The position numbers were made by a program, and so were the translations under genes. Below are positions 21,601 to 59,558 of a DNA stretch of 64,000 nt, piece after piece. Origin of the DNA: Desulfobacteraceae bacterium (GTDB taxonomy: Bacteria > Desulfobacterota > Desulfobacteria > Desulfobacterales > Desulfosalsimonadaceae); the NCBI GenBank assembly GCA_011390465.1, contig JAABSH010000002.1:62001-126000 (forward strand), given 5' to 3'. Numbering within the stretch: the stretch's first letter is position 1; each line of letters opens with the position of its first letter. The notes beneath the pieces are model-generated. The model ran no database searches. It was given only the letters and a program-made list of their open reading frames with translations, and was not told where the DNA came from.

Positions 21601-22635
21601 AGTGTCAATGGTGATGCCGTGCTTTATGTGCTGAACCCGAAGACCGGCGACTTGATTCGCAAGCTGAAGACCGAATCTGCGGGCGCGGACGCCTGTAACG
21701 GACTTTCCACTCCAGTGGTCGTTGATGTGGATCTCAATGGCAATGTGGATTATGCCTATGCCGGAGACCTGAAAGGCAATCTCTGGAAATTTGATCTCAC
21801 CGGCGATGATGCGGACAACTGGAAGGTATTTTATAACGACGGGGCAGACCCCAAACCTTTGTTTACGGCCCGCAATGCAGATGATGCGGTTCAGCCCATT
21901 ACATCCCGGCCGGATGTGATGCTGCTCAGTTCCTGCGGACCCTATCTTGGTTATCTTGTGGCGTTCGGCACGGGCAAGTATTTTGGGGAGGATGATATTT
22001 TTAATTATGAAACCCAATCTTTTTACGGAATCTACGATTGGGCTCCGGCTTATGCCAGCATGAAAGAACCGGTTAACGACAAATATCTTGGCGTTTTTCA
22101 GCAGGACCGCAGTCTTTCCAATGCATCTGATCTGACCCTGCTGGAACAGACGGTTGCGGAAGATACAGCGGATTGGCGGATTCTGACGGACAATACCATC
22201 AATTATTATAATCCGCTGACGGAAGAAGGGGATCACGCGGGCTGGTATTATGATTTTTATGATGATGGAGAGCGAATGGTGGCGGCACCGCAAATACGCA
22301 ACAACACCGTCATCTATGTTACCAATACGCCCAAGGCGGATCCTTGCGTGTGCGGCGGGTCTTCAATTCTCTATCAGGTGGATGCCTGCAGCGGGGGAAG
22401 AACCATTTCACCGCAGTTTGATATCAATGAAGATAAAAAATTCAATGATTCGGATCGCATCTCCACTGATGACGGCCCGTTGCCGCCTACCGGCATGAAG
22501 CTGGAAGGCACTGTCTATGATCCCACGGCAATGCCGCCCGATATTCTGCTGTTGACGGACAGTCTGGGGAAAATTACGGAAGTACTGGTGCCGCCCAATC
22601 CCCCGGGCCGATGTTACTGGCGGTTTATCGAATAA
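18649..22635 (+). CDS. pilY1: PilY1-type pilus tip adhesin with golvesin-like insert (operon 1)
   Basis: This 1328-residue exported protein is a PilY1/PilC tip adhesin. A signal peptide covers residues 1-44. A von Willebrand A-type start carries the metal-site motif DASGS at about 65-69. Residues about 190-325 look like a golvesin C-terminal-type beta-sandwich: DQNDAGFS, AEWEIDVAQAGEYEVMV and the closing VSVDAVKLIE. The C-terminal beta-propeller (about 835-1310) includes VYVGANDGMLHAFDAQNG and DLKGNLWKFDLT, and DVDLNGNVD near 1025 resembles the PilY1 calcium loop. It presumably sits on a minor-pilin tip made by the preceding genes. The paralogue at 27918 has the same architecture. Confidence 0.93.
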   Translation: MKQLKILNTRPSRLTMLVFFIGWLLLGLSAALPAQTAFAAGECLSLADMPLEVRGQAAPALVSLAWDASGSMLFTIFTEDDHYYIGNSLYTFVFPESEYHYTSTYNRPLPANMRHHWQTQCADYNRMYYDPAVDYTPWPRWNTLEDHESEFGDFHADINTPRQHPTKSEYGVFDLNAIWYDFVIDNAPGNSVEYLVDQNDAGFSASPALTDSWTEWDNSDYEGGSYHNITLDRKETTAEWEIDVAQAGEYEVMVSVAFNSNRTSQAEYTVDYDGGSYTKTISQYRSSLQQDWESLGVYNFTKTATVTLTCGRENQNYVSVDAVKLIEPRDQIIFAHYFIEDDNGDVFLVNLNDEPTYYQATLSADRKTVDRLTLIDADAAESAGINTDRSYKAERQNFADWYQFYRRRYFTGIAAAGQFIDGWSNVFMRIESFPDKYNNHENFSRQISPLDMTIIDQAGGEDYYDEKDDVLYDLYTMVHPWGGTPLREGLYQTGQFFEFGHGWAALNGQSPFRVYSNTHLFPFFLKKYGGECQQSFAIVMTDGMWNGDLQNSQENIIGNADGDDSTDFDEGAFGDSYDHTTADIAMHFYERDLHPLVPGAAEKHLNNFVPTAEFEDPAANHQRMITYGISFGIPGEYTDEQRVRFSQSLRYGDDPKDADWKGWPKPEPGETSTIDDLWHATINGRGDFFSAANPQKLVEAMEQIKSSIEKRLGSATAVSTNTVQRQVGTLVYQAQFHSSRWSGDLVARSVDADSGTMADDPAWSAKDQLELVAADDRVVLSFGGSDGIPFRYADLSADQKSRLHADSDTGAQIVDFIRGDGSLEQQNAGTFRSRNGKIGDIVHSQPFYHKGVVYVGANDGMLHAFDAQNGEEYFAFVPDRLMDRLAELADEDYSHQYYVDAPPYVRTISKGQSILVGGFGKGGKGFFGLDVTNVKTAAETDAEDVVLWEFPAGTDNDMGYTYARPEIVHTEAEGWVVVAANGYASVNGDAVLYVLNPKTGDLIRKLKTESAGADACNGLSTPVVVDVDLNGNVDYAYAGDLKGNLWKFDLTGDDADNWKVFYNDGADPKPLFTARNADDAVQPITSRPDVMLLSSCGPYLGYLVAFGTGKYFGEDDIFNYETQSFYGIYDWAPAYASMKEPVNDKYLGVFQQDRSLSNASDLTLLEQTVAEDTADWRILTDNTINYYNPLTEEGDHAGWYYDFYDDGERMVAAPQIRNNTVIYVTNTPKADPCVCGGSSILYQVDACSGGRTISPQFDINEDKKFNDSDRISTDDGPLPPTGMKLEGTVYDPTAMPPDILLLTDSLGKITEVLVPPNPPGRCYWRFIE

Positions 22636-27917: not shown

Positions 27918-30900
27918 ATGAAAATAAAAATAACAATGCGCCGGCGGGCACCGTTTCGCTGGCTGGTATGGATTCTGTGTGTGCTGATGGCCACTGCGGG
28001 CATCGTGCCGGGGGCATTTTCAGGAGAAATTTGCGGACCGGTAGATCTGGCGGACGTGCCCCTGGAACTGATTGGCGGCATTAATGTGCCTGGGCTGTTA
28101 ATGATTTCCCTGGACAACTCGTACTCCATGGGAAGCGAAATTATGACCGAAGAACCAGGGGACGACCCGGATACGGCGAGATTATTTAATTATGGTGGGA
28201 AAAGATATGGTTATATGTTTTCTGGAAGTCCATTACCCCAGAGTCCGGGGATGGAAGTTCTCGAGGCCGATCCAGTTCACAAAAACGCCTGGAAATCCCA
28301 ATGGCACAAATACAACAAGATGTATTACAATCCGTTTGTGGGGCAGGACAACGGCTATGCTCCCTGGCCTACCAAGCTGGATGTCAATGTCGACAACCCC
28401 CGCTGGGATCCTCAAGATAGTTATGATTCTACTTCTACTTATTCTCTGACCGGAGACTGGCTTACCGGGTATGTTGCCATAGATTCGGATCCGCCAGCCG
28501 GGGGGGCAGCAACCATTTTCATGGATGATCAGGATGCCGGTTTCATCAAAGGAGGTTCCGCTGCGTGGACGGAGTCCTCGACGGGCCATGACGGCCACAG
28601 CTGGTATTCAACCGGCGGCAATGGTCACACGTTCACGGCCGAGTGGGAAAAAAAAATAGAGGATACCACTCAGGCGTATAATATTTTTGTGTATCGCTAT
28701 TACGCTCAAGATCCCGCCACTTATACTGTATATGATGATGCCTCAAGTATGGGGAGTTTTACTGCGCCGAAAGATACTGGAGATCAATGGGTTGAAATTG
28801 CGACAGATAAGAAATTTTCAAGCGGTAATGCGATAATAAAACTCTCGGGAACCGGCAAAAACAAGGCTTGGAACAGCGCTGATGCAATAAAATTGGTGCC
28901 TGCTGGCAGTGGTGCCGCTGGTACTTTGTACTGGGATACGTCATCATCCAAAACCATCAAAAACCGGCATTTCTATGTCCGGAGCGATAATGGTGAAACA
29001 TATCTGGTTAATTTGATCAGTAAGGACAATGCGGAATTTTATCTTTTGGATGAGATAGATTGGTTGAATGGTGTAGCAGTAAATGATCGACTGGATTGGT
29101 ATGAGCAAGATTCAAAAGGTGGTTATCCTGAATTGGTCTCAAGAACGTATGCACAACTTCCTTCAGATCTAAAAACCGCCAATGGCGGCCCATTGCCCCT
29201 GCCAGGGGCCGGAGCCTATGAAACCCATCTTCAGAATTTCGCCAATTGGTTCACTTACTACCGATATCGGCGGGCGTCGGCCCAGAATGCAGTGGGCGTC
29301 ATGGTGACGGAAATGAAGAACATGCTGGTGGGCCTGACCCTCAGTCCGCCTACGGAAAAATATGGTGTAAGATGGATCAATCCCAGTTCTAATTGGGAAG
29401 CAGCTGAAGATCAAACAGCCGAGTTTTTGTCAATTTTATACGATCTTCACAAATATGGCTCCTCAACAGGTTTTTCATCGGATATTGCGATCCTGGGAAA
29501 TTATTTTGAAAATCAAGGAGGCACGATAAGCTCGGACAGTGGTATTATAACAGGAACCGGATACGCTGACGATAACACCTATCCCTATTTCACCCAGGTT
29601 AATGGCGGCAATTGTCAGCAGGCATTTGCCCTGCTAATTACGGACGGTGCATCTCCCAGTACAGATAATATAGTTAATGCTGATGGAGATAATAATTCTG
29701 ATTATGACGGCGGTGTTTTCGGAGATGATTTTGTCAAAACTGCGGCGGATGCGGCCATGCTCTATTATGAAAGGGACATCAAAGGGGAGGGCAATAAAGG
29801 GACTCTCACTGATGATGTGCCTACCAATTACATTGATTTTGCTCCACATCAGCATATGGTGACCTATGGGCTCAGTTTCGGAGCGGACGGCCCCCTGCGG
29901 GAAGCTTATCCGGATTTTGACGCTCTGTGCGCGGATAGCGACGATGGAAATAAATGTATTTGTGATGACGGATGCCCCACATGGACAGATCCGGTACCTC
30001 CGAAGGGCACTGGGGATCCGCTGGACGACCTGTGGCATGCCACGGTGAACGGCCGGGGACTTTTCCTGTACGCGGATAATCCCCAGGAACTGGTTTCCAA
30101 ATTGCGTGAAATCAGTGCGGATATTGAAAGGCGCAAGGGCTCTGCCGCTGCTGTTACCACCAACTCTGTCCAACGTCAGATCGGGACGTCTCTTTATCAG
30201 GGGCTTTATCATTCTGAAACCTGGTGGGGTGACCTGTTGGCCTGGGAAGTGGATTCGATTTCAGGGGCATTGATCAGGAGCACCTGGAGCGCCCAAGAAG
30301 AGCTTGCGGAAATTTCCTACAAAGACCGAAAGATTTTTACGTACAATGGCATTTCTGCGGTGAATTTTCTCGATGCTGATCCCGATGATTTTGGATTAAC
30401 AGCATCAGAAGCAGCTTATATTGCAGGCGATCAAACCAATGAAGGGCCGAAAGCCCCGGATTTTCGAGAACGGTTATATGTCTTGGGCGACATTGTGCAC
30501 TCTGAGCCTTTTTATTTTGATCATGTGATTTATGTGGGAGCCAATGACGGCATGATGCATGCTTTTGATGCGGACAATGGAAAGGAGCTTTTCGCCTATA
30601 TTCCATCCATGGTTCACGGGAACCTGAAACAACTCACTGAACATGCATTCATTGACGATCATCGTTATTATGTGAATGCATCGCCCTATGCTGAGGAAGT
30701 AAAAGGGGTGCGTTACCTTGCCGGAGGGCTGGGAAAAGGCGGTAAGGGTGTATATTGTCTGACCGTTGATAAGGCCAAAAATGATGGGATAACAGCCAAT
30801 GACATTTTAAACTGGGAACTGGATGCATCTTTGGATGACAATATGGGGTATGTTTACGGACGGGCTTACGTGGCCAACACCAATGCGGATAAAGCCGTCG

Positions 30901-31916
30901 TGATTTTCGGCAACGGATATGCCAGTGTCAATAAGAAATCAGGCCTTTACGTTGTTGAAGCCTCCACCGGCAATGCCTTGAAAGTTTTTGACACCGGCGT
31001 CACCGGCATCGGCGGCTGCAATGGCATGTCATCTCCTGCCCTTATTGACGTTAATTTTGATTCCAAGGTGGATTATGTCTATGCCGGTGACCTGGATGGC
31101 AATTTATGGAAGTTTGATCTTACCGACAAAGACCCGAACAACTGGGCCATGGCCTATGGCGGCAGCCCCATGTTTACCGCCAGGGATTCAGATGGCAACC
31201 CCCAGGCCATTACTTCGGAACCGGATGTGATGGAGCATTGCATCAAAGGCCGTGACGGCTATGTGGTGGTTGTTGGCACCGGTCGGTACCTGAATGCCGA
31301 TGATCTTGTCAGCAGAATGTCGCGCAATGCCATGTATGGGCTCTATGACTGGGAACCGGATTGGCCCGAGGACCAGGTCGCGCCGCCTTTAGGGACGTTT
31401 GACGGTGCCGGCAATCTTACGGTGGACCAGACCCTGCTTAAGCAGTCCTATGTCTCAACCAGCGGTGATTTTGATTTGACCACGGATTTTGCCATTGATT
31501 ACTATAATCCGGAAACCGATACGGGCGAGCACGCGGGATGGTATTTCCCCTTTCCGGACATCACTGAAATCATGGTGCGGGATCCGCTCTTGCGTAACAA
31601 TGTGGTGTATTTTGTGACCAATACCCAGGCCGGCGGTATTTGTTCCTCCGAAGGCGCATCCTATGTAAATGCCCTGAATGCCTGCTCCGGCGGTCAGCCT
31701 GATAAACAGGAGTTTGATACGGATGGTGATGGCGATATCGATAAAGATGATGTGATCAAGGATCAGAATCCCAGCCGGCAGTATTTTGATACCACACTGT
31801 TCGATCCAGTGCTGCTGGAAGATATTTTATACATCAATGATACGGAAGGTAATGTGGAGGAGCAGGAAATTTCAGGCTATCCCCCCGGCACCAGTTTCTG
31901 GATGATGAATGAATAA
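27918..31916 (+). CDS. pilY1: PilY1-type pilus tip adhesin with golvesin-like insert (operon 2)
   Basis: This 1332-residue protein is a paralogue of the one at 18649. It has a signal peptide (residues 1-35), the VWA-type metal motif DNSYS near 65-69, a golvesin-like insert at about 197-324 (MDDQDAGFI, then AEWEKKIEDTTQAYNIFVY and closing NSADAIKLVP), and the PilC-type propeller in the last 500 residues, including VYVGANDGMMHAFDADNG and DLDGNLWKFDLT. Near 1266 it has DTDGDGDIDKDD, a good EF-hand-like calcium loop, which is degenerate in the operon 1 protein. The insert sequences differ much more than the propellers, which suggests different ligands. Confidence 0.93.
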   Translation: MKIKITMRRRAPFRWLVWILCVLMATAGIVPGAFSGEICGPVDLADVPLELIGGINVPGLLMISLDNSYSMGSEIMTEEPGDDPDTARLFNYGGKRYGYMFSGSPLPQSPGMEVLEADPVHKNAWKSQWHKYNKMYYNPFVGQDNGYAPWPTKLDVNVDNPRWDPQDSYDSTSTYSLTGDWLTGYVAIDSDPPAGGAATIFMDDQDAGFIKGGSAAWTESSTGHDGHSWYSTGGNGHTFTAEWEKKIEDTTQAYNIFVYRYYAQDPATYTVYDDASSMGSFTAPKDTGDQWVEIATDKKFSSGNAIIKLSGTGKNKAWNSADAIKLVPAGSGAAGTLYWDTSSSKTIKNRHFYVRSDNGETYLVNLISKDNAEFYLLDEIDWLNGVAVNDRLDWYEQDSKGGYPELVSRTYAQLPSDLKTANGGPLPLPGAGAYETHLQNFANWFTYYRYRRASAQNAVGVMVTEMKNMLVGLTLSPPTEKYGVRWINPSSNWEAAEDQTAEFLSILYDLHKYGSSTGFSSDIAILGNYFENQGGTISSDSGIITGTGYADDNTYPYFTQVNGGNCQQAFALLITDGASPSTDNIVNADGDNNSDYDGGVFGDDFVKTAADAAMLYYERDIKGEGNKGTLTDDVPTNYIDFAPHQHMVTYGLSFGADGPLREAYPDFDALCADSDDGNKCICDDGCPTWTDPVPPKGTGDPLDDLWHATVNGRGLFLYADNPQELVSKLREISADIERRKGSAAAVTTNSVQRQIGTSLYQGLYHSETWWGDLLAWEVDSISGALIRSTWSAQEELAEISYKDRKIFTYNGISAVNFLDADPDDFGLTASEAAYIAGDQTNEGPKAPDFRERLYVLGDIVHSEPFYFDHVIYVGANDGMMHAFDADNGKELFAYIPSMVHGNLKQLTEHAFIDDHRYYVNASPYAEEVKGVRYLAGGLGKGGKGVYCLTVDKAKNDGITANDILNWELDASLDDNMGYVYGRAYVANTNADKAVVIFGNGYASVNKKSGLYVVEASTGNALKVFDTGVTGIGGCNGMSSPALIDVNFDSKVDYVYAGDLDGNLWKFDLTDKDPNNWAMAYGGSPMFTARDSDGNPQAITSEPDVMEHCIKGRDGYVVVVGTGRYLNADDLVSRMSRNAMYGLYDWEPDWPEDQVAPPLGTFDGAGNLTVDQTLLKQSYVSTSGDFDLTTDFAIDYYNPETDTGEHAGWYFPFPDITEIMVRDPLLRNNVVYFVTNTQAGGICSSEGASYVNALNACSGGQPDKQEFDTDGDGDIDKDDVIKDQNPSRQYFDTTLFDPVLLEDILYINDTEGNVEEQEISGYPPGTSFWMMNE

Positions 31917-50365: not shown

Positions 50366-51610
50366 ATGAACATTATCGGGATTTTTATCTTGGCCGCGGT
50401 GATTGTGGATTACATGGTGCATTTTATCGCTGACGGCCTGAACCTGAAAAAGCTGAACACCGCATTGCCGCAGGCTTTTGCCGGATGGTATGATGAAGAC
50501 CGGTACGCGGCGTCCCAGGCTTATCTCCGGGTCAATACGCGGTTTGAGCGGGTGGCGGCGGCTGTCAATCTGCTGGTGTTTCTGCTGATGTGGTTTGGCA
50601 GAGGGTTTCCGCTCCTGGACGGGTGGGTCCGAACCGTGAGCGACGGCCCGGTGATTCGGGGACTGCTTTATATCGGGGTGTTGTTGATTTTGAAGTCTGC
50701 CATAGGGCTTCCGTTTTCCATTTATTCCACTTTTCATATTGAAGAACAGTTTGGTTTTAACCGGACCACATGGAAAGTGTTTCTGGTTGACCGGTTCAAG
50801 CAGTTTGTGCTGGCCCTGATCCTCGGCGGGCCGGTGCTTGCCGGAGTCCTGGCATTTTTTCAATATGCCGGATCATTTGCGTGGGGTTACTGCTGGATGG
50901 CACTTTCCGGGTTTATTTTTTTTATGCAGGTTGCTGTTCCGGCCTGGATTCTGCCGTTGTTTAACAAATTTTACCCTTTATCTCCCGGAAAATTAAAAAC
51001 CGCAATCCTGAATTATGCGGATTCCATTGACTTTCCGGTAAAAAAAATTTTTATCATGGACGGTTCCCGGCGGTCCCGGAAAAGCAATGCCTTTTTTACC
51101 GGATTTGGCCGGCACAGGCGGATCGTGCTCTATGATACCCTCGTGAAAAATCATGACACAGATGAGCTGGTGGCGGTGCTGGCCCATGAAATGGGGCATT
51201 ATAAAAAAAAGCACGTTTTGTGGATGCTGGTGGCAGGCATTGCCCAGACCGGTCTTATGCTTTATCTGCTGTCCCTGTTTATTTCTTCGCCGGTGCTGCA
51301 CAGCGCATTTTATATGGAGACGCCTTCCGTCTATGCCGGGCTGGTGTTTTTCGGAATTTTGTTTGCGCCCATTGAATTTTTTATCGGGATTGCCATGCAG
51401 TATGTTTCCCGAAAACATGAATATGCCGCGGACCGGTTTGCCGTTCTTACCACCGGCCGGCCGGCAGCGTTCAGCCGGGCTTTGAAAAAACTGGCGGTGC
51501 ACAATCTTTCCAATCTTACCCCTCACCCGGTGTATGTGATGCTGAACTATTCCCATCCGCCGGTGATGGAACGGCTGGAGGAGATAGGGAAGATAGAAGC
51601 TGAAAGGTGA
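50366..51610 (+). CDS. M48-family metallopeptidase (Ste24/CAAX protease type)
   Basis: This 414-residue membrane zinc protease belongs to the Ste24 branch of M48. The metal motif HEMGH is at residues 274-278 and the third ligand, in EYAADRF, is near E352. Several hydrophobic segments flank the catalytic core, and the YSTFHIEEQFGFNRTT segment near 120 is typical of Ste24 homologues. Bacterial members are thought to clear damaged or misfolded membrane proteins. AAAGGAA precedes the ATG. It ends in heptamer repeats that run past the stop codon. Confidence 0.93.
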   Translation: MNIIGIFILAAVIVDYMVHFIADGLNLKKLNTALPQAFAGWYDEDRYAASQAYLRVNTRFERVAAAVNLLVFLLMWFGRGFPLLDGWVRTVSDGPVIRGLLYIGVLLILKSAIGLPFSIYSTFHIEEQFGFNRTTWKVFLVDRFKQFVLALILGGPVLAGVLAFFQYAGSFAWGYCWMALSGFIFFMQVAVPAWILPLFNKFYPLSPGKLKTAILNYADSIDFPVKKIFIMDGSRRSRKSNAFFTGFGRHRRIVLYDTLVKNHDTDELVAVLAHEMGHYKKKHVLWMLVAGIAQTGLMLYLLSLFISSPVLHSAFYMETPSVYAGLVFFGILFAPIEFFIGIAMQYVSRKHEYAADRFAVLTTGRPAAFSRALKKLAVHNLSNLTPHPVYVMLNYSHPPVMERLEEIGKIEAER

Positions 51611-51688: not shown

Positions 51689-52609
51689 TCAGGGGATTTT
51701 CAGTTCATTTTTAAGTTGCATTCGGGCGCAGTTGTAGCCTTCTTCAATTAATTTCACGGCCTGTTGCCGGGAGAAATTCAGAAAAGACCGCAGACCCAGC
51801 ATCCGGGTCGGCGCCACCGGCAGGATGCGACGGCCGCCGGCCGCCAGCTGAAGCTGTGGCGAACGGGCAAGGGGTGTCCGGCGGCATCCGCTGTCTGCCG
51901 CTGTCTGCCAGGAGTGGTCCGGCAGGGCGTTGATATACGATCCCGTAAGCAGATGTTCCACTAAAAGGGCGGTGACGTCTCCATGGCACCGGGGTTCGGG
52001 AACGGAGAACGCCCCGACCGGAGAATGCAGCACCACGATAATTTCTTCTGCATTGGATTGCAGGGCCGGGGCAATGGGGGTATTTACCATCACCCCCGCA
52101 TCCCAGTAAGGGATATTGTCGATATACTGCCATCCGAAAAGTCCGGGTATGGCACTGGCCGCCATGAGATGGGGGATGCGGATGGCATGATTGGTAAAGT
52201 AGCAGATCTGGCCGGTCTGCATGTTCAGGGCACTGATGCAGATTTTCCGGGGAGAGGCAGCAATCGCATCAAAATTGATATGGGTTTTCAGCATGCGGGC
52301 CAGGGGCCGGGTATCGGATAACGGCACAAACCGGCGTCGGCTTTTCATGGAGCGAAGCAGCGTGGGCAGGGTGAGACGGAATATTTTTGAGCCGCTGTTG
52401 TGCTCCCACAGCTGTCGCATCTGGTCGGCGGATAATCCCGAACCACAGGCCGCCGCATTGATAGCGCCCACGGATGTGCCGCAGATCATATCCGGATCCC
52501 ATCCAATTTCTTCCAGATATTTCAGTACGCCCACCTGGAAAGCGCCCCGGCCGCCACCGCCGGATAAAATAAGGGCCCGCTTTTGGTTTTTATCTGTTAT
52601 CGTCATCAT
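51689..52609 (-). CDS. Patatin-like phospholipase
   Basis: This 306-residue protein is a patatin-fold acyl hydrolase. The oxyanion motif LSGGGGRGAF is at about residues 15-24, the nucleophile serine is in GTSVG near 44-48, and the catalytic aspartate is in YWDAGVMVNTP near 168-178 (DAG rather than the more common DGG). It should release fatty acids from phospholipids or from neutral lipid. No signal peptide is seen, so it is cytoplasmic or peripheral. It lies next to the storage-granule genes on the opposite strand, which is compatible with a role in lipid turnover there. Confidence 0.9.
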   Translation of the reverse strand: MMTITDKNQKRALILSGGGGRGAFQVGVLKYLEEIGWDPDMICGTSVGAINAAACGSGLSADQMRQLWEHNSGSKIFRLTLPTLLRSMKSRRRFVPLSDTRPLARMLKTHINFDAIAASPRKICISALNMQTGQICYFTNHAIRIPHLMAASAIPGLFGWQYIDNIPYWDAGVMVNTPIAPALQSNAEEIIVVLHSPVGAFSVPEPRCHGDVTALLVEHLLTGSYINALPDHSWQTAADSGCRRTPLARSPQLQLAAGGRRILPVAPTRMLGLRSFLNFSRQQAVKLIEEGYNCARMQLKNELKIP

Positions 52610-52704: not shown

Positions 52705-52754
52705 TTGACATCCATAACGCGTTGCGTCATAAAGTCTATAACGCAACGCGTTAT
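52705..52754 (+). promoter_or_regulatory. Phasin promoter with perfect 14-bp inverted repeat
   Basis: TTGACA at 52705-52710 and CATAAA at 52728-52733 form a sigma-70-type promoter with a 17-base spacer. ATAACGCGTTGCGT at 52714-52727 fills most of the spacer, and its exact inverse ACGCAACGCGTTAT lies at 52741-52754 over the start region. A repressor bound here would block RNA polymerase. PhaR-type proteins, encoded at 53610 and 58687, are the likely binders. Confidence 0.75.
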
Positions 52755-52809: not shown

Positions 52810-53379
52810 ATGACCAAAAAAGCAGCAGAAAAAAAAGAACAAAAAGAAACCAAAATGGCAGTGACGGAAAAAATCCAGAAAGCATCTGAAACCGTTACCG
52901 GAAAAATCAAGACGTTAAATGACAAATATCTGGCCGACACCGTTGAGAAGGGGAAAAAGACCGTCCAGGAATACAACGAAAAATATGTTTCCGCCAATTT
53001 TGAAAAAGGGAAAAAAACGCTGAAGGAATACAACGAGAAATACATTTCCCCAAATGTTGAAAAGGGCAAAGAATATTTGGAAAAACCCTATAAACGAATT
53101 TCCAAAACCGTTGACGGCGTTCTTGAGCGCGGCCGTGACATGGAAAAAGACGCCCTTAAGAAACTGGAAGGCACCATGACCCGTGGCAGAGAATTGATGT
53201 ACAAGCTGCCCCTGGTGGAAACCGTTGAAAAAGGCGTCACCAAAAGACTGAATGCCCTGCCGGCCTTGGTGAACATGCCCAGCAAAGGTGAAATTGAACA
53301 GCTGACCCTGGCCATGCAGACCCTCAGCAGCAATATTGAAACCCTGAAGCATCAGAAAGTCGCCCAGAAAAGCGCGTAG
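52810..53379 (+). CDS. Phasin-like granule protein with amphipathic repeats
   Basis: This 189-residue, lysine- and glutamate-rich protein looks wholly helical and has no signal peptide. Three repeats of about 21-22 residues follow each other at about 40-105, each with VEKGKKT or FEKGKKT and then EYNEKY, as in amphipathic lipid-binding proteins. The C-terminal part (KLPLVETVEKGVTKRLNALP, then a leucine-rich helix) resembles phasins. It would coat the surface of storage inclusions in the cytoplasm. GGAGGA precedes the ATG. A strong, apparently repressed promoter drives it. Confidence 0.72.
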   Translation: MTKKAAEKKEQKETKMAVTEKIQKASETVTGKIKTLNDKYLADTVEKGKKTVQEYNEKYVSANFEKGKKTLKEYNEKYISPNVEKGKEYLEKPYKRISKTVDGVLERGRDMEKDALKKLEGTMTRGRELMYKLPLVETVEKGVTKRLNALPALVNMPSKGEIEQLTLAMQTLSSNIETLKHQKVAQKSA

Positions 53380-53438
53380 CCACGGTTTTAAAAAAATTCT
53401 GAGTCAACAGCGGATGTAACCCGACAGAGCAGATTCAC

Positions 53439-53463
53439 GGGGCAGGCCACCGGGGCCTGCCCT
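53439..53463 (+). terminator. GC-rich hairpin after the phasin-like gene
   Basis: GGGCAGGCC at 53440-53448 pairs with GGCCTGCCC at 53454-53462 around a 5-base loop. There is no T run, so it may stabilise the mRNA end or act as a weak terminator rather than a full one. Confidence 0.6.
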
Positions 53464-53609
53464 GTCAGAATACAGAGCAGATGCAATATGGCCCGCGACG
53501 TTTAAATGATTGCAATTTCATTATTTTTTGGTTAGATTAAATTTTATATTTTTCTTTTTGTCGGATATTTTTAATTTTTTAACCCGCAATACTGTCTAAG
53601 GAGGTTCCG

Positions 53610-54263
53610 ATGTATACAATTAAGAAGTATGCCAATGGTCGTTTTTACGATACAGAGACAAAGAATTACATCACCCGTGATCAGATTGCCGATCTTCTCA
53701 ACACCCAGAAAAAGATCACCATTGTTGAGACCAAAACAGGAAAAAACATTACCAGCGACGTGACCTCCAAAATTTCAGCAAAAGCTTCAAAAGCAGGCAC
53801 GGCTAAAAAATCGTCCGGCAAAAAATCAACCGCGAAAAAAGCCGCTGCTAAAAAAACCTCCCGAAAAACCGCGCAGGATGCGGCCGGGTTTTTTACCGGG
53901 CTGTTTCGGAAAAGCGGAGATACCCTCTCAGACTATGGTAAAAAGTATGCGGCCATGTGGCAGGATCTGCTGACCCTGTCCAGAGAAGAAATTGATAAAG
54001 TGATCAATATGCTGGTCAAGGACAAAAAAATTACCGAGTTTGAAGGCAAAAAACTCAAAGACGAAATTATCAAACACCGGGACAATATCCAATCCTGGAT
54101 TACCAAAAATATTGATACCCGGATCAATGAAATCCTGGACCGGATGAACCTGGCCAACCGGGATCAGGTCCTGGATCTTACCACCAAAATTGATTCTCTG
54201 AACAAAAAAATTGCCCAGATGGAAGGATCCAAAAAATCTGCCGGTGCAAAAAAATCCTCATGA
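53610..54263 (+). CDS. phaR: PhaR-type PHA regulator with phasin-like C-terminus
   Basis: This 217-residue protein starts with the PHB/PHA accumulation regulator DNA-binding domain: IKKYANGRFYDTETKNYIT and DQIADLLNTQKKITIVETKT at residues 3-48. A lysine- and alanine-rich stretch at about 53-88 (KKSSGKKSTAKKAAAKK) resembles histone H1 tails. The rest, with FFTGLFRKSGDTLSDYGKKY and LLTLSREEIDKVINMLVKD, is helical and phasin-like. In other bacteria PhaR binds both the granule and the phasin promoter, repressing it until granules form. AAGGAGG precedes the ATG. The paralogue at 58687 lacks the basic linker. Confidence 0.87.
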   Translation: MYTIKKYANGRFYDTETKNYITRDQIADLLNTQKKITIVETKTGKNITSDVTSKISAKASKAGTAKKSSGKKSTAKKAAAKKTSRKTAQDAAGFFTGLFRKSGDTLSDYGKKYAAMWQDLLTLSREEIDKVINMLVKDKKITEFEGKKLKDEIIKHRDNIQSWITKNIDTRINEILDRMNLANRDQVLDLTTKIDSLNKKIAQMEGSKKSAGAKKSS

Positions 54264-54304
54264 TCCGCTGTTTTTTATCCTGACCGCAGCCAGAGAATTT
54301 TTTT

Positions 54305-55492
54305 ATGGCGGGTGACGCAAAAAAACCGTTCCAGGTCTTTCAGAAATTCCCGGATTCCCGGGTTCCGGGACATGGGAAATACGGTTCAGCAATAAAACCG
54401 CCGGCCAAAGCGTCATCCAACCCGTCAGCTGCTATCAAATTTCAGGAAACCCTGGCGGATGCCAGGTCAAATGCCGGGCCAAATATGGGGCTGGATGCGG
54501 GTGGTGAACCCGCCCGTCCGCCCGCATGGCTTTCAAGTTTGCTGTCCCGGCGGCTGATTTTTGTCATGGGTAAAGGCGGCGTGGGCAAAACCACGCTCAG
54601 TATCGCCCTTGCCGGCGCGGCCCGCCGGCAGGGCAGAAATCCGTTGCTGGTGGAGCTGGGAGATGCGGAAAGCATTGGCCGGCTGTACCGCAAACTTCCC
54701 CTGCCGCCGGAGCCTGTTCCCCTTGCCCATGGTATTTGCGGCGTCCGGGTGGATGCCCGGGCCGAGCTGGAAGCCTACATACGAACCCATATCCCGTCAA
54801 AATTCATCGCCGGTAAAATATCCAACAGCCGTTTGTTTGATTATCTTTTTGAAGCCGCTCCCGGTTTAAAGGAAATCATGAGCCTGGGCCGTCTGTGGCG
54901 ATGGGAACAGGAAATCCAGTATCTGTCTGACCCGCCTTTTGATCTCATCATCGTGGATGCCCCGGCCACCGGCCATGCGCTCAGCCTGTTGCGCCTTCCC
55001 GAGGCCCTGATCCGGATGATTCGCGTGGGTCCGGTGGCGCGGCAGCTGCAGGGCCTGAAAAGGCTGTTAAGGGATCCCGAGCGCACGGCCCTGGCCATTG
55101 TTACCCTTGCGGAAGAATTGCCGGTCCGGGAGACCCTTGCCGCTTGCCAGGAGGCCCAGGCAGATCTTGAAATGCCGGTGGGAGCGGTGTTTATCAATGC
55201 CGTGCATATGGAAATGTTCAGCCCCCGGGAGAAAGATCACATCCAGGCCCTGGCGGCCATGTATGCCGGTCATCCAGATGCCCCGGAAAATGACATTATC
55301 CGCTGCGTCAGACGTTTTGCCCGTCGTCAGGCCGTCCAGCAGGCGCATATCCGGGAAATTTGCAACACCGCCAAAACCCCGGTTTTGCTGATGCCCTTTT
55401 ATTATACCAATGATATGACCCTGGAGCATCTCGAAGCCCTTTCTTCTGAAATGGGCCATTTTTTTTCTGTGATCCGGGAAAAAGAGACATGA
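54305..55492 (+). CDS. ArsA/Get3-like ATPase, first of a pair
   Basis: This 395-residue protein has an 80-residue disordered-looking leader (proline- and alanine-rich) and then an ArsA/Get3-type SIMIBI ATPase domain. The deviant Walker A MGKGGVGKTTLS is at about 87-98, and the switch II sequence IVDAPATGHALSLL near 217-230 fits the family. Switch I is altered: VELGDAES replaces the usual DPAHS-like motif, so nucleotide cycling may depend on the partner. Cysteines for arsenite binding are not evident. Its end overlaps the start of the second ATPase (ATGA), and the two probably form a heterodimer. Confidence 0.88.
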   Translation: MAGDAKKPFQVFQKFPDSRVPGHGKYGSAIKPPAKASSNPSAAIKFQETLADARSNAGPNMGLDAGGEPARPPAWLSSLLSRRLIFVMGKGGVGKTTLSIALAGAARRQGRNPLLVELGDAESIGRLYRKLPLPPEPVPLAHGICGVRVDARAELEAYIRTHIPSKFIAGKISNSRLFDYLFEAAPGLKEIMSLGRLWRWEQEIQYLSDPPFDLIIVDAPATGHALSLLRLPEALIRMIRVGPVARQLQGLKRLLRDPERTALAIVTLAEELPVRETLAACQEAQADLEMPVGAVFINAVHMEMFSPREKDHIQALAAMYAGHPDAPENDIIRCVRRFARRQAVQQAHIREICNTAKTPVLLMPFYYTNDMTLEHLEALSSEMGHFFSVIREKET

Positions 55493-56625
55493 ACCGCCTT
55501 TGCCAATCCCTGAAAGATCCAAATGGGCCGTCGGTTGTCATCTGCTGCGGCAGCGGCGGTGTGGGGAAGACAACCCTGTCCGCGGCCCTGGGCCTGCTGG
55601 CAGCCGGGGCCGGGAGAAAGACCCTTGTACTGACCATTGATCCGGCCAGACGCCTGGCCGACGCCCTGGGCCTGGGAGCGTTTACCCGTGACGCGCAGCC
55701 GGTATCCCTGGATGCGCTGTCGTTAACCCATCCCGCCACCCTGCATGCCATGATGCTGGATCCCAAGACCACATTTGACCAGCTTGTAAGCCGGTTTACA
55801 TCACCGGAACTCCGGGACCGGATTTTAAATAACCGGTATTATCAGCATTTGTCCGCGAACATGGCCGGTTCCCACGAATACATGGCCATGGAAAAGCTCT
55901 GTGACATCTATCAGCAGCAGCACTATGATCTGATTGTACTGGATACCCCGCCCAGTCGCCGGGCCCTGGATTTTCTGGATGCGCCTGAAAAAATGCTCAA
56001 TGTCCTGGGACATAATTTTTTTTTAAAAATGTTTCGTCCTTACCTGAAAGCCGGTAAATGGGGATTTCGGTTTCTTAATGTCCTGGCATCTCCCGTGATC
56101 AAGGCTGTCAGTAAAGTGATCGGCAAACAGGCCATGGACGATTTTGCCGGGTTCATGCAGTTGTGGGATGATATGATGTTTGAGGGGTTCAGCCGGCGGG
56201 CGACCGCGGTAAAAAATCTGCTTGCCGGAGACAGCACATTGTTTCTGGCCATTGCCACGCCCCAGCGCCTGCCCATGGAAGAAGCGGTTTTTTTAGGCAA
56301 TACCCTTAAACGCAGCAAAATGCCCTTTGGCGGGTTTATTGTCAACCGGGTGCATGGGCGGCCGGCGGATGCCGGGGATGGCAGTGATTTTCGGGCGGAG
56401 GCGTTGTTTGCGGCAGTGGATTTATCACAATCCCTGAAAAATAAAATGATAACTGTTTTCCGGAACATGCAGCAGCTGGCGGCCAGTGACAGAGAAGCGG
56501 TACGGCAGTTAAAAAAGACCGCCGGCCCAGACACCCCTCTTGTGACGATCCCGTTTTCAGACAGCGAAATTACGGGGCTTGAAGAGTTGTATGCCCTGGC
56601 CGGCCGGATTGAAAATGGCGTTTGA
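55489..56625 (+). CDS. ArsA/Get3-like ATPase, second of a pair
   Basis: This 378-residue protein has Walker A CGSGGVGKTTLS at about residues 19-30, an intact switch I TIDPARRLADALGLG near 49-63, and switch II VLDTPPSRRALDFLDAP near 146-162, which is the form seen in non-arsenical ArsA-family ATPases. The central helical region (KMFRPYLKAGKWGFRFLNVL) is hydrophobic and could hold a membrane or tail-anchor helix. No arsenite cysteines or arsB/arsR neighbours exist. Placement between PhaR and wax ester synthase genes suggests a role in handling hydrophobic granule proteins; that is inference. Confidence 0.88.
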   Translation: MNRLCQSLKDPNGPSVVICCGSGGVGKTTLSAALGLLAAGAGRKTLVLTIDPARRLADALGLGAFTRDAQPVSLDALSLTHPATLHAMMLDPKTTFDQLVSRFTSPELRDRILNNRYYQHLSANMAGSHEYMAMEKLCDIYQQQHYDLIVLDTPPSRRALDFLDAPEKMLNVLGHNFFLKMFRPYLKAGKWGFRFLNVLASPVIKAVSKVIGKQAMDDFAGFMQLWDDMMFEGFSRRATAVKNLLAGDSTLFLAIATPQRLPMEEAVFLGNTLKRSKMPFGGFIVNRVHGRPADAGDGSDFRAEALFAAVDLSQSLKNKMITVFRNMQQLAASDREAVRQLKKTAGPDTPLVTIPFSDSEITGLEELYALAGRIENGV

Positions 56626-56650
56626 CGGCGTCGTAGAACCTGTTAAAAAA

Positions 56651-58384
56651 TTATCCGGCAGACGCCTGTTTGCCTTGTTTGTCTTTTTTTCCGTTTTCGG
56701 GTTTCCCGTTTTCGGGTTTTTCGTCATCCTTGTTTTTTGGCTTGTTTTCTGGTTTCAGCTCGGCAAAGCTTTCATATTTATTCTGGTGAATGGTGCAGTA
56801 AAGGGAATCCGTGGCGGCCCGGTTGTGGCACTGGGTGCCGTTCCGGGTAATGGCTTTGCAGCGGATGGCCTGAATTGATCCGCCCCGGGTTTCTTCTTTG
56901 GTGATTTCCGCGGTATCCGCAAACCGGTCGTTGATGATCAGGGGATCTTTTTCAATCTGGCCGGCCCGGTACATACCGAGCAGCATTTTGTATTCATTTA
57001 CAAAATTATCCAGAATGGAAGTGGGGTCGTGGACCAGGCCCGCATCCGTTGCAATACCCAGTGAAACCTTACCGTTGTAGCTGATAATGCTGATGCCCAG
57101 CCCGAGCCCGCCGATGCGCGGGACCCAGAACATGATGTTTTTGATTTCTTTTCCGGAAAAATAAAGGGGAATCTGGGGGCCGGGAACATTGCTCATAACA
57201 CCGGTGGTTTTGTTGGCAAACATGTTGGCCGCGGTTTTTGCCAGTTTGGCTGAAGATACCCCTAACGCGTTTAACAGGGCATAGGCAACAGCGGCGTCCG
57301 GGGCTTCTTTGAGATCCGAGATGCGGCGCTGCACTTCCCGGATGCGGAGAACCGGATCATCAATATGCACCGGCAGGGAGACCAGGATAAGGCTGAACTG
57401 ATTACCCAGTTCAATTTTTCCGTCCAGGGGCCGGATATTGACGGGCATGGCCACCCGGATATCCAGATCCCCTACCAGGTTGTTGCATTTCTGGAGATAG
57501 CGTCGCAGGGCGCCGGTCACCATGGCCACAAGAATGTCGTTAATGGTGGCGTTAAAATACTTGCCAATGGATTTTATATCCGGCACCGGCACGGGATCGC
57601 TGAACGCCACATTTTTCCGGATGCCGAGCTCCCCTTTGAAAACGGTTTTCTTGTCCGACGGCAGGAGCATGATTTTGCTGATCACGGCTGTGGCTTCAAT
57701 GGTGTATTTGCTGATGAGCTTTGCCCGATCCACCAGATGATAGGGATTGGCCAGGCTGGCCTCAATTTCTTTGGTCAGGAAATCCCCCATTTTGAGCATC
57801 CCGATCTTGGCCCGGTTAATTTTTTTCAGGGTTTTTTCAAAGGGCGGGAAAAAGAAGGCGGCTTCTTTTTTTCCTTTTGGCTCGCCAAGGGAATTGGTCC
57901 AGACCGCGTTCGGTTCCAGATCCCCCATGGAAAGCAGCACCCGGATCAGGGAAATGCCGTCACCAATGCAGTGATGCACCCGGATAAACAAAACAGAGCC
58001 GTTGCCTTCAAAGTTTTCAATATAATGGGCCTGCCAGAGCGGTTTTGTGGGGTCAAGTGGCGTGGCGGTAAGATCGCTGATAAGTTCCTGAAGCGCGACC
58101 CTGTCTCCGGGAGCGGGCAGGGCGATGCGATGAAGATGGGATCGCAGGTCAAATTTGGGATCAAGTTCCCATATGGCATTGCCCACGCCGCTGAGGGGCC
58201 GGACCACGCGTTTTTTGAACCGGTCATAGCACAACAGCCGGTTTTTCATTGTTTCCACCAGCTGTTTGAAATCCAGTGGTTCATCAAACTGAAGAAATCC
58301 GGTAATGACCATCAGATTGGTGGGATGGTCCATGTGAAGCCAGAAGTTATCAATGCTTGACATGATTTCGACGTGTTTTTTCAT
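56651..58384 (-). CDS. Wax ester synthase/diacylglycerol acyltransferase with C-terminal zinc-like domain
   Basis: This 577-residue WS/DGAT condenses acyl-CoA with fatty alcohols or diacylglycerol to make wax esters or triacylglycerol. The active-site motif HHCIGDG is at about residues 135-141. The later VMSNVPGPQIPLYFSG near 400 and the NDILVAMVTGALRRYL segment near 280 are family hallmarks. After the usual end near 480 there is an extension: RCKAITRNGTQCHNRA with a following CTIH at about 504-532, a CxxxTxxGxxC...CxxH zinc-finger-like unit, then a charged lysine/glutamate/asparagine tail. AAGGAGG precedes the ATG at 58384. Confidence 0.92.
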   Translation of the reverse strand: MKKHVEIMSSIDNFWLHMDHPTNLMVITGFLQFDEPLDFKQLVETMKNRLLCYDRFKKRVVRPLSGVGNAIWELDPKFDLRSHLHRIALPAPGDRVALQELISDLTATPLDPTKPLWQAHYIENFEGNGSVLFIRVHHCIGDGISLIRVLLSMGDLEPNAVWTNSLGEPKGKKEAAFFFPPFEKTLKKINRAKIGMLKMGDFLTKEIEASLANPYHLVDRAKLISKYTIEATAVISKIMLLPSDKKTVFKGELGIRKNVAFSDPVPVPDIKSIGKYFNATINDILVAMVTGALRRYLQKCNNLVGDLDIRVAMPVNIRPLDGKIELGNQFSLILVSLPVHIDDPVLRIREVQRRISDLKEAPDAAVAYALLNALGVSSAKLAKTAANMFANKTTGVMSNVPGPQIPLYFSGKEIKNIMFWVPRIGGLGLGISIISYNGKVSLGIATDAGLVHDPTSILDNFVNEYKMLLGMYRAGQIEKDPLIINDRFADTAEITKEETRGGSIQAIRCKAITRNGTQCHNRAATDSLYCTIHQNKYESFAELKPENKPKNKDDEKPENGKPENGKKDKQGKQASAG

Positions 58385-58517
58385 TGCGGCCTCCTTGGGA
58401 ATTCAAAAAAAACATATTTATTTGACATTTTTAACAGAGCAGGGCGCTGAATGCAAACTGAAATTTAGGGGGAATTTTTCGCCCACGGCAGGAGAAACTA
58501 AAAAAAGCTAAAAAAGC

Positions 58518-58546
58518 TTGACACTTATAACGCACCCCGTCATATT
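58518..58546 (+). promoter_or_regulatory. Promoter of the second phaR gene with ATAACGC operator
   Basis: TTGACA at 58518-58523 and CATATT at 58541-58546 are 17 bases apart. ATAACGCACCCCGTCAT at 58527-58543 sits at the same position relative to the promoter as ATAACGCGTTGCGTCAT at 52714-52730, with most bases identical. This suggests control by the same repressor. Confidence 0.68.
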
Positions 58547-58608
58547 TGGGTCTCTGGTTATCTCCGCTTCAATTCAATTGTTTATGGTATGATATCAATT
58601 TATTGAGA

Positions 58609-58628
58609 TAATCGAAATCGAAATCGAA
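58609..58628 (+). repeat. GAAATC hexamer repeat
   Basis: Three to four copies of the unit AAATCG/GAAATC lie about 60 bases before the second phaR gene. The same hexamer type opens the repeats at 32641 and 33650. Confidence 0.85.
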
Positions 58629-58686
58629 ATAATAAAATTCCATGGCAAATCACGGTAAAAATCGGGAAAATATTTCAGGAGGCCCT

Positions 58687-59262
58687 ATGCATTTAATCAA
58701 AAAATACGCCAACCGCAAGCTCTATGATACCACTGACAAGCGGTATCTGACCATGGATCGTCTGGCGGAACTGATAAAATCCGGTGAGGAAGTTTCCATT
58801 ACGGACAATGAAACCGGTGATGATATTACCGCTGCCGTTGTTTCCCAGCTTCTGGCCCGGGAAAGCGCCGGAGATAACAGGGCAGTACCGTCCGGCGTGC
58901 TGATGCAGCTTTTGCGCAAAGGCCGGGGCACCCTTTTCGGGTATGGCAGAAAATATGTATCCCTGTGGCAGAGCGCCCTTACCCTGTCCAAAGATGAGAT
59001 TGAAAAACTGGTCAACAGCCTGGTCACTGCAAAGGAAATATCAGAATCCGAAGGCAAAAATCTGAAAAAGGAAATTATGGGATTTGCCACCAACCTGAAA
59101 TCCTGGATTCTGGAAAATATTGACCTGCGCGTATCAGAGGGGTTGAAAAAAATGACCCTTCCTTCCCGGGATCAGGTGAAGGCGCTCGACAAACGGGTGG
59201 ATGAGCTGGACCGGAAAGTCCGGCTTCTGGAACAGGCGTACCGCAACGAAACCCAAAAATAA
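58687..59262 (+). CDS. phaR: PhaR-type PHA regulator, second copy
   Basis: This 191-residue protein starts MHLIKKYANRKLYDTTDKRY with the PHB accumulation regulator domain (residues 1-50, ending VSITDNETGDDIT), then the phasin-like helix region with GTLFGYGRKYVSLWQSALTL and LSKDEIEKLVNSLVTAKEI, similar to the same part of the 53610 protein. ATG at 58687 is chosen for AGGAGG at 58677; an in-frame ATG at 58642 lacks a site. It has no basic linker and ends in a heptad-like helix. Both copies sit within 5 kb and may regulate the same genes. Confidence 0.88.
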   Translation: MHLIKKYANRKLYDTTDKRYLTMDRLAELIKSGEEVSITDNETGDDITAAVVSQLLARESAGDNRAVPSGVLMQLLRKGRGTLFGYGRKYVSLWQSALTLSKDEIEKLVNSLVTAKEISESEGKNLKKEIMGFATNLKSWILENIDLRVSEGLKKMTLPSRDQVKALDKRVDELDRKVRLLEQAYRNETQK

Positions 59263-59270
59263 AACCGGTG

Positions 59271-59558
59271 TCAGGACCACTGCCCGTCGGTATTGATCAG
59301 ATTGATGACCCCGGCGCTGGCTGAAATCGGTTCCGGCGACGGAAAAAAGAATGAAATAACCGCCCAGACGCCGAAAATAGAGACCAGAGAGCCTGCCAGC
59401 ATGACCAGCAATCCGCCGGCGCACCCGGTAATGGCGCCAATGCCGATCAGTACCGCCAGTCCGCCGATAATAAATGCGATAATGCTTCCGGTGAACAAAA
59501 AGAATTTAAACATGGAAATCTTTTTCATCCTTTCGTTATTGTCTGAAATATCATACAA
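59271..59558 (-). CDS. Small two-helix membrane protein
   Basis: This 95-residue protein has two hydrophobic stretches, about residues 17-44 and 45-70 (FLFTGSIIAFIIGGLAVLIG and GLLVMLAGSLVSIFGVWAVI), and a short polar end. I know no family for it. Starts at 59558, 59528 and 59513 are in frame, and none has a convincing ribosome binding site, so the start is open. It converges on the phaR gene with only eight bases between the stop codons. Confidence 0.5.
   Translation of the reverse strand: MYDISDNNERMKKISMFKFFLFTGSIIAFIIGGLAVLIGIGAITGCAGGLLVMLAGSLVSIFGVWAVISFFFPSPEPISASAGVINLINTDGQWS

Follow-up and report, generated by a model that had tools for sequence, protein, structure and literature searches.

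A candidate PhaR-regulated neutral-lipid cluster that joins a wax ester synthase to BagA/BagB-like Get3-family ATPases in Desulfobacterales

What are two PhaR proteins and a pair of Get3-like ATPases doing beside a wax ester synthase? The question is raised by a gene cluster of a Desulfobacteraceae bacterium (GTDB family Desulfosalsimonadaceae, hereafter the source family), found in a stretch of 64,000 nucleotides (contig JAABSH010000002.1, positions 62,001 to 126,000; hereafter the window) of assembly GCA_011390465.1, a source genome of 3.93 Mb (119 contigs; listed completeness 100%, contamination 1.19%). Between 51.7 and 59.5 kb of the window, the plus strand encodes a phasin-like protein, PhaR1, a BagA-like and a BagB-like ATPase and PhaR2, in that order, and the minus strand encodes a patatin-like protein before them, a wax ester synthase/diacylglycerol acyltransferase (WS/DGAT) between BagB and PhaR2, and a hydrophobic protein of 80 residues after PhaR2. 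An initial annotation, made from the sequence alone, had proposed that the ATPase pair delivers granule-coat proteins to neutral lipid inclusions under PhaR control. Domain searches with Pfam and NCBIfam models and their cut-offs recovered all six genes from phasin to PhaR2 where that annotation had placed them, the phasin call being weak. We read the whole as a self-regulated cluster for a neutral-lipid body (wax ester and/or triacylglycerol, TAG), switched by PhaR2 and served by BagA/BagB as a holdase or targeting factor, a reading that in our judgement stands about evenly poised. Below, G-numbers denote genomes (G000 being the source genome), L-numbers loci and C-numbers contigs.

Gene content and conservation of the cluster

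WS/DGAT is the only polymer- or lipid-forming enzyme of the cluster, as first noted, and its translation reads HHCIGDG at the active site (motif HHxxxDG). For polyhydroxyalkanoate (PHA) synthases, the source genome gave no match to PF07167 and only two weak matches, of 26 and 21.9 bits, to TIGR01836 (class III; cut-off 365.3), so that there is no PHA operon over these cut-offs to explain the presence of PhaR. The early description of WS/DGAT as standing in place of a PHA synthase therefore suits the source genome, but not the family at large: a class III synthase is encoded elsewhere in 11 of the 22 WS/DGAT-bearing family genomes, and was not found in the other 11 (the source genome included), several assemblies being incomplete. 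Because the synthase accompanies only half of these genomes, the cluster seems to be independent of PHA synthesis and to represent a second, parallel storage system.

Gene order was compared by a scripted neighbourhood analysis, our sample comprising 36 genomes of the source family (order Desulfobacterales), 60 relatives in a wider set and 242 genomes of the order. The block phasin–PhaR1–BagA–BagB–WS/DGAT(reverse)–PhaR2 lies on a single contig in 14 genomes, i.e., in the window and at 13 other loci (L058–L062, L065, L087, L090, L091, L093–L096), of which L058 carries an extra frame of 484 codons between BagB and WS/DGAT. In six further genomes (G001, G009, G011, G014, G015, G019), contig ends or interruptions break the block, and in three (G017, G022, G028) it has been rearranged so as to occupy two loci. 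This order holds while identity to PhaR1, BagA and BagB of the window falls to about 45–68%, and the patatin-like gene adjoins the phasin gene in many conserved clusters. Hence, neither a PHA operon accounting for PhaR in the source genome nor a lack of neighbourhood conservation, the two outcomes that the initial annotation had named as telling against its model, was observed. In clade g4 (nine genomes of the source family), both WS/DGAT and PhaR are missing from all nine members, which make up most of the 11 family genomes (of 36) without a match to PHB_acc_N, the PhaR domain.

In clade g8, the cluster is split (L064/L097, L187/L188, L189/L190): one half has phasin–PhaR1–WS/DGAT(–PhaR2) without BagAB, the other patatin–PhaR1-like–BagAB with a second WS/DGAT.

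PhaR-type operators and PhaR sub-types

The evidence for regulation comes from a palindrome, TAACGC-N3-GCGT(T/C)A, present twice in the phasin promoter and once, in degenerate form, in the PhaR2 promoter (Table 1). Among relatives, all 11 patatin–phasin regions hold such sites (24 with at most one mismatch, against 0.01 expected from first-order shuffles) and 13 of the 15 WS/DGAT–PhaR2 regions hold one within three mismatches (14 sites against 1.06), although these promoter regions are related to each other and the expectations therefore overstate their independence. None of the 16 phasin–PhaR1 regions carries the operator, and PhaR1–BagAB thus has no separate site of this type. When exact TRACGC-N3-GCGTYA sites were counted genome-wide in the 23 cluster-bearing family genomes, a test that kinship between regions affects less, 62 of the 72 fell inside the cluster (including one on contig C115 of G001, checked as a phasin promoter); the 10 others are at background level, since a reversed-pattern control totals 15 sites in the same genomes. 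Five g4 genomes were tested and none has an exact site. A general promoter and terminator scan barely exceeded shuffles (10 vs. 7.3 promoters and 18 vs. 11.3 terminators), listing the PhaR2 promoter but not the phasin promoter and counting operator 2 as a terminator-like stem, which is why we rely on the operator and not on the scan.

The pattern resembles known PhaR sites. In Sinorhizobium meliloti, the PhaR consensus is reported to be a palindrome of core YGCRNYGCR whose arms are AT-rich, phasin promoters having two copies of it on the flanks of the −35 element (PMC12542648), while Herbaspirillum PhbF reads TG[N]TGC[N]3GCAA (PMC3206438). The S. meliloti core fits 22 of 22 exact-form phasin sites. 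In two other families of Desulfobacterales, one site precedes a PhaR2-type gene followed further downstream, on the same strand, by BagAB (L066:4934, L069:6666, L071:3496), which makes a more direct case for operator control of BagAB than the window may offer. In G043 (L178), the site separates WS/DGAT from a phasin-like–PhaR2 pair, and in G059 it precedes two phasin-like loci. Near class III phaC genes of the source family, canonical PhaR genes have instead TGC-N3-GCA palindromes just upstream in three of the six loci scanned (L084, L085, L092; none found in L086, L088 and L089), and these genomes may thus harbour two PhaR subfamilies that differ in their half-sites. The operator was not found within two mismatches in four Myxococcaceae loci; generic PhaR-like palindromes considered there were GC-rich and unconvincing.

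PhaR1 and PhaR2 are the only PhaR-domain genes of the source genome. Both pass the PHB_acc_N cut-off, in line with the initial count of two PhaR proteins, and both miss the TIGR01848 equivalog cut-off of 109.45 bits (42.4 for PhaR1, 69.3 for PhaR2), but they are not equivalent. In an alignment of 67 rows, all 28 PhaR1 copies, including that of the window, read NGR(F/Y)YDT where PhaR2 reads NRK(L/M)YD(T/I) (with one exception among PhaR2-type proteins, G059 at L195, which has NGK), and have thereby lost an arginine that is otherwise conserved in the DNA-binding domain. Owing to this loss, PhaR2 is likely to be the DNA-binding repressor and PhaR1 is probably a granule protein or a modulator; a PhaR2-type gene without PhaR1 accompanies the operator in L066, L069, L071 and L178. 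The start of PhaR2, first set at 58642, is most likely the ATG at 58687, because relatives begin with M-x-x-I-K-K-Y and an AGGAGG lies just upstream.

As to the proposed PhaR control, we consider it well supported by the conserved operators for the phasin coat gene, together with PhaR2 itself. For the ATPase pair it is likely but less firm, because the 230-base gap between phasin and PhaR1, with its strong stem-loop, makes it less certain that BagAB levels are set by the phasin operator.

The Get3-like pair, the coat and candidate clients

The 4-base overlap of BagA and BagB and the 41 bases between PhaR1 and BagA make PhaR1-bagA-bagB look like one operon, which may or may not share a transcript with phasin. 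The best NCBIfam models for the two ATPases are the mycobacterial BagA and BagB, and their best PDB matches are the two chains of a Mycobacterium Get3-like complex (6bs3_A, E 1.1e-30, for BagA; 6bs3_B, E 1.3e-65, for BagB). Since both miss the equivalog cut-offs (Table 1), they are relatives of BagA/BagB rather than equivalogs, with one adjacent subunit of each type. Structure comparisons against the PDB place the AlphaFold model of BagA (mean pLDDT, the per-residue model confidence, 81.2) close to 6bs3_A (Z 29.7, root-mean-square deviation 3.5, 307 residues aligned), to archaeal TRC40 (Z 28.0) and to tail-anchor-bound yeast Get3 (Z 26.3–26.6), so a Get3-type fold is predicted. Residues 1–65 and 387–395 of the model have a pLDDT below 50. 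The low values over the first 65 residues and the mostly shorter full-length relatives (312–397 residues) suggest that the true start of BagA may lie further in than annotated. Among the compared copies that include the P-loop, BagA keeps GKGGxGK(T/S) without a DPA motif, and BagB has both G(S/A)GGVGKT and T(I/V)DP(A/S). In Get3, the signature lysine acts across the dimer; by analogy, these motifs suggest one complete composite ATP site, on BagB. The CxxC zinc-binding dimer motif is in neither subunit of the window. No ars gene (arsB, arsR or arsD) was found among the ten proteins of 50.4–62.4 kb by Pfam, no genome-wide search having been made.

The product of 52810–53379 misses the phasin family cut-offs (PF05597, 14.9 against 28.8 bits; TIGR01837, 20.1 against 94.7), and we call it a phasin on account of its repeats and gene context. 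It may be phasin-like in its work without being filed as a family member. The number of its 19-residue repeats (EKGKKTxxEYNEKYxxxNx) differs between relatives. Over residues 30–100, the helical hydrophobic moment peaks at 95 degrees per residue (about five turns per 19 residues), a value reached by none of 500 shuffles, and it is not unusual over residues 100–160 (41 of 500 shuffles as high). The repeat part is thus consistent with a long amphipathic helix on a lipid surface.

The protein of 80 residues is the best candidate within the cluster for a hydrophobic client of BagA/BagB. It occurs in 18 of the 60 relatives: 17 of the 36 family genomes, in all of which it adjoins PhaR2 by coordinates, and one genome outside with a weak copy (34%). 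NCBIfam models gave no match to it at E 0.01. The aligned copies share a hydrophobic segment of some 55 residues, which is rich in glycine at its centre and leads into PxP and a tail that is likewise conserved; from the glycines at the centre, we read the protein as a possible hairpin at a membrane or lipid surface.

The lipid made by WS/DGAT may be narrowed down by a second protein family. At L178, the G043 locus with WS/DGAT–phasin-like–PhaR–patatin also holds two proteins of about 690 residues (L178:2081–6411) and a frame related to iron-type alcohol dehydrogenases. The C-terminal half of L178:4348–6411 is related, below cut-offs, to PigE (143.8 bits) and to long-chain acyl-ACP (acyl carrier protein) reductase (49 bits), the PDB matches for the two being 4ppm and 6jzu. 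Reductase-like relatives occur in 24 of 25 WS/DGAT genomes vs. 2 of 35 others (the exceptions being G011 in the first group and G014 and G030 in the second), and the source genome has three copies (contigs C53, C97 and C86), the match on C97 containing one internal TGA. The reductase-like protein could supply aldehydes, and it is its co-occurrence with WS/DGAT that favours wax esters as the product, TAG being possible too. The family itself, in which the C-terminal half is acyl-ACP-reductase-like and the N-terminal half uncharacterised, follows the distribution of the WS/DGAT genomes. The Cys/His-rich tail of WS/DGAT is present in 14 of the 15 relatives compared (missing in L064); in the window, this tail (RCKA-TR-G-QCHNRA-T-S-YCTIH) resembles small HGGxSTG/DUF5763 motifs, below cut-off.

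Table 1. Features of the cluster, in window coordinates.
Feature	Position	Strand	Sequence	Evidence and remarks
Patatin-like lipid hydrolase	51689–52609	−		PF01734, 94.6 bits; divergent from the phasin gene
Phasin promoter	52705–52733	+	TTGACA, 17 bases, CATAAA	Read from the sequence; operator 1 in the spacer, reaching the −10 element
Operator 1	52715–52729		TAACGCGTTGCGTCA	In the phasin promoter spacer
Operator 2	52739–52753		TAACGCAACGCGTTA	Perfect arms; just downstream of operator 1
Phasin-like coat protein	52810–53379	+		19-residue amphipathic repeats; weak matches to TIGR01837 and PF05597
Stem-loop 3′ of phasin	53431–53466	+		36-base stretch, −25.7 kcal/mol; no T run
PhaR1	53610–54263	+		PF07879, 54.6 bits (cut-off 25); NGRFYDT replaces NRxLYDT; phasin-like C-terminus (PF05597, 21.4 bits, below cut-off)
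BagA-like Get3-family ATPase	54305–55492	+		PF02374 (ArsA family), 88.2 bits; NF053622, 128.6 bits (cut-off 400)
BagB-like Get3-family ATPase	55489–56625	+		PF02374 (ArsA family), 96.7 bits; NF053621, 312.7 bits (cut-off 521)
WS/DGAT acyltransferase	56651–58384	−		TIGR02946, 363.1 bits (cut-off 309.95); HHxxxDG site; Cys/His-rich C-terminal tail
PhaR2 promoter	58518–58546	+	TTGACA, 17 bases, CATATT	Divergent from WS/DGAT
Operator 3	58528–58542		TAACGCACCCCGTCA	In the PhaR2 promoter; degenerate in the source genome
PhaR2	58687–59262 (open frame from 58642)	+		PF07879, 77.6 bits; phasin-like C-terminus (PF05597, 26.4 bits, below cut-off)
Putative membrane or lipid-surface protein	59271–59513	−		80 residues, hydrophobic; nearly cluster-specific

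Elsewhere in the window, two proteins of about 1330 residues (18649–22635 and 27918–31916) have, by appearance only, the look of PilY1-type adhesins.

A proposed mechanism, its alternatives and known systems

According to our reading, WS/DGAT would make a neutral lipid, the resulting body would be coated by the phasin-like repeat protein and by the phasin-like tails of PhaR1 and PhaR2, and the patatin-like hydrolase might mobilise the lipid. PhaR2 would occupy the operators in the −35/−10 spacers of the phasin promoter and of its own promoter until, on the appearance of lipid bodies, it was drawn to the neutral-lipid surface and freed the phasin promoter, by analogy with the PhaR of polyhydroxybutyrate (PHB) producers and the MLDSR of Rhodococcus. 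Phasin would then be made in excess, while PhaR1 and BagA/BagB would be produced at a lower level by read-through past the stem-loop. Finally, BagA/BagB would act as an ATP-driven holdase or targeting factor, keeping hydrophobic surface proteins in solution on their way to the membrane or to the growing body, its clients possibly being the protein of 80 residues or else WS/DGAT or the coat proteins. What the sequence itself shows are the genes, their conserved block, the operators, the stem-loop, the lack of a PHA synthase over cut-off and the predicted Get3 fold of BagA; PhaR2 as the binder, its sequestration by lipid, the read-through, the lipid type, the clients of BagA/BagB and the delivery of coat proteins to wax-ester/TAG bodies are our inference.

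Several observations weigh against this scenario. Concerning delivery, the cluster encodes no obvious tail-anchored protein, and phasins, being amphipathic proteins that are soluble and not tail-anchored, are the weakest form of Get3 client to propose. AlphaFold gives the protein of 80 residues one straight helix (residues 2–56; predicted template modelling score 0.39), which does not support a hairpin. Moreover, WS/DGAT is present but BagB gives no match in G041 and G043, which means that lipid bodies of the WS/DGAT kind do not generally require BagAB. Concerning regulation, a strong stem is present in all 16 phasin–PhaR1 regions (best fold of 24–36 bases, −21.2 to −35.1 kcal/mol), its sequence varying between regions and a short T run following it in some; it may be an attenuator or a processing site yielding excess phasin, or a (weak) terminator. 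BagAB of the source family may therefore be only partly, or not at all, under the phasin operator, and a separate PhaR1 promoter is possible. With one mismatch allowed, the source genome has six operator places vs. 10 for the reversed control (no general enrichment), and with up to three the window has 17 vs. 16.6 in shuffles, so that only the near-exact cluster sites are strong as operator evidence. Two of the 15 WS/DGAT–PhaR2 regions are devoid of a site, the PhaR2 site of the window is degenerate, and the S. meliloti core fits only three of the nine exact-form sites at PhaR2. Finally, most of the genomes come from one family, and the co-occurrence there of WS/DGAT and PHB_acc_N (22 genomes with both, none with WS/DGAT only, three with PhaR only, 11 with neither) reflects co-loss in a few lineages and not 36 independent trials, resting on few independent gains and losses.

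It is possible, if doubtful, that the lipid-body and PhaR parts are right and that BagAB has another role, such as a stress-induced redox-type holdase or a function in carbon or glycerol metabolism, being made at the same time since storage and stress coincide. Mycobacterial bagAB is reported to protect against glycerol and nitric oxide toxicity (PMC10597346), and the stem-loop parts BagAB from the phasin promoter in the source family. The taxonomic distribution points both ways. Across the order, 24 of the 242 genomes have a BagB-like match (E 1e-20) and 113 PHB_acc_N, both being found in 22 (Fisher p 1.7e-6, kinship ignored). PhaR adjoins BagAB in 11 of these 24 genomes (eight of the source family, plus G075, G078 and G129), whereas the stretches examined around BagB in the 13 others, some of them short, gave no match to a PhaR or phasin-like model. 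At L066, PhaR and BagA are separated by a gene for a phasin that passes the family cut-off (PF05597, 75.5 vs. 28.8 bits). Among the best 80 BagB loci of a genome collection, PhaR is nearby in eight, four in Desulfobacterota and four in Myxococcaceae (L104, L105, L106, L154), and absent from the stretch examined in 72. Most sampled BagAB loci have neither PhaR nor WS/DGAT as neighbours. The 65 loci read as actinobacterial from their titles show no PhaR and no match above 12 bits to a phasin C-terminal motif model (built from 14 seeds excluding the window phasin and PhaR1, neither of which matched the strict pattern). In L104, the only Myxococcaceae locus scanned with Pfam, the order is PhaR, a ParA-like ATPase, a phasin-like gene (PF05597, 22.5 vs. 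28.8 bits), BagA, BagB and, about 1.4 kb further on, an M48 peptidase. BagAB and granule proteins are thus linked repeatedly but not universally; a general stress role would lead one to expect a looser tie to granules than is given by a neighbourhood of this kind in two phyla and by the PhaR-type operator that immediately precedes PhaR–BagAB in two other families of Desulfobacterales.

The Myxococcaceae loci have further features of their own. The ParA-like ATPase of L104 (6745–7548; Myxococcus) lies between PhaR and the phasin-like gene and might segregate storage granules. An M48-like peptidase follows BagB by 1–2 kb in all four loci (PF16491 in L104), and the window has an M48 peptidase of its own, upstream of the cluster (50366–51610).

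That the operator is read not by PhaR2 but by a TetR-type repressor encoded elsewhere in the genome, for example a fatty-acid-responsive one, appears unlikely to us. Many TetR operators are indeed palindromes with a 3-base spacer, and the only other exact TAACGC-N3-GCGTTA of the source genome (C89:13290; L208, around 4291) stands upstream of a TetR-like gene, with a lytic-transglycosylase-like frame on its other side, both named by appearance. Yet, according to the neighbouring frames, this is the only one of the 10 exact outside-cluster sites to adjoin such a gene. Besides, the sites accompany PhaR2-type genes in other families too, the operator core equals the PhaR consensus, and canonical PhaR genes have TGC-N3-GCA sites upstream of themselves in half of the loci scanned.

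We give slightly less credit still to plain synteny, i.e., a neighbourhood inherited within one family in which BagAB and the lipid genes share no function. The full block is confined to one family and flanking genes (TPR, M23 and DegP-like) also stay put in many members, but the order persists despite the sequence divergence given above, one operator pattern links two promoters, and PhaR/phasin-like–BagAB recurs, differently arranged, in other families and in Myxococcaceae. As for PhaR and phasin being relics of a decayed PHA locus, the lack of a synthase over cut-off in the source genome notwithstanding, it is highly improbable, given the class III synthase kept elsewhere by half of the WS/DGAT-bearing family genomes, the different sites of the canonical PhaR genes near it in three of the six loci, and the conservation of PhaR1 and PhaR2 as sub-types.

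Returning to the lipid-body reading, a broader hypothesis can be put forward, if only tentatively: BagA/BagB of Desulfobacterota and Myxococcota might form a dedicated, PhaR-controlled targeting pathway for storage-body surface proteins, the PhaR/phasin machinery having been turned in the source family from polyester granules towards wax-ester/TAG bodies through a PhaR subfamily that reads CGC-N3-GCG (vs. TGC-N3-GCA), with the cluster-specific hydrophobic protein as client. To our knowledge, the cargo of bacterial Get3 homologues is not settled; the conserved neighbourhood names candidate clients and a destination for them, making their role directly testable. The cluster also predicts wax-ester/TAG bodies in Deltaproteobacteria, in which, according to a 2023 paper (PMC10351704), such accumulation had not been reported.

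How does the cluster compare with known systems? The BagA/BagB pair of Mycobacterium (Rv3679/Rv3680; PDB 6bs3–6bs5) likewise consists of adjacent, unequal Get3/ArsA-family ATPases, and BagB has the P-loop G-(S/A)-G-G-V-G-K-T with TIDPA in both; unlike it, the source pair falls under the equivalog cut-offs and has PhaR/phasin-like neighbours, which the 65 actinobacterial loci do not (the Mycobacterium locus not being among those viewed). The eukaryotic and archaeal GET (TRC40) system shares the predicted fold, but its ATPase is a homodimer, whereas the source pair is made of two unequal subunits, neither with CxxC. Storage of wax esters and TAG by WS/DGAT is known, for example, from Acinetobacter, and the enzyme of the window passes the same curated cut-off with the same HHxxxDG motif; it differs by its Cys/His-rich tail and its PhaR and phasin-like partners. 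Its candidate reductase is acyl-ACP-reductase-like, whereas a published survey covers FarA, AcrB and FcrA (PMC11948995), for which no search was made here.

With the PHB phasin/PhaR systems, in which PhaR is reported to leave the phasin promoter when granules form (PMC3079617), the cluster shares a PHB_acc_N regulator, a phasin target and GC-N3-GC promoter palindromes, two copies of which also precede S. meliloti phasin genes (PMC12542648). It departs from them in having WS/DGAT, a CGC half-site (not TGC) with TAA/TTA arms, regulators with a phasin-like tail, and BagAB following in the same direction. A droplet-held regulator of a coat operon is also found in Rhodococcus, in the form of MLDSR, which we take to be unrelated to PhaR. 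MLDSR is reported to be sequestered by lipid droplets and to control the operon of the major droplet protein through two palindromic sites; the site is different, and that operon, as described in the available text, includes no Get3-like ATPase (PMC5504291). Our cluster thus suggests the same idea of a droplet-sequestered regulator with another type of regulator. Among the open-access papers listed as matches, judged by title or by the start of the abstract, none joins Get3/ArsA, phasin and WS/DGAT or PhaR. In sum, we take the cluster to serve WS/DGAT-made storage bodies, probably under PhaR-type regulators, with a BagA/BagB-type pair among its genes.

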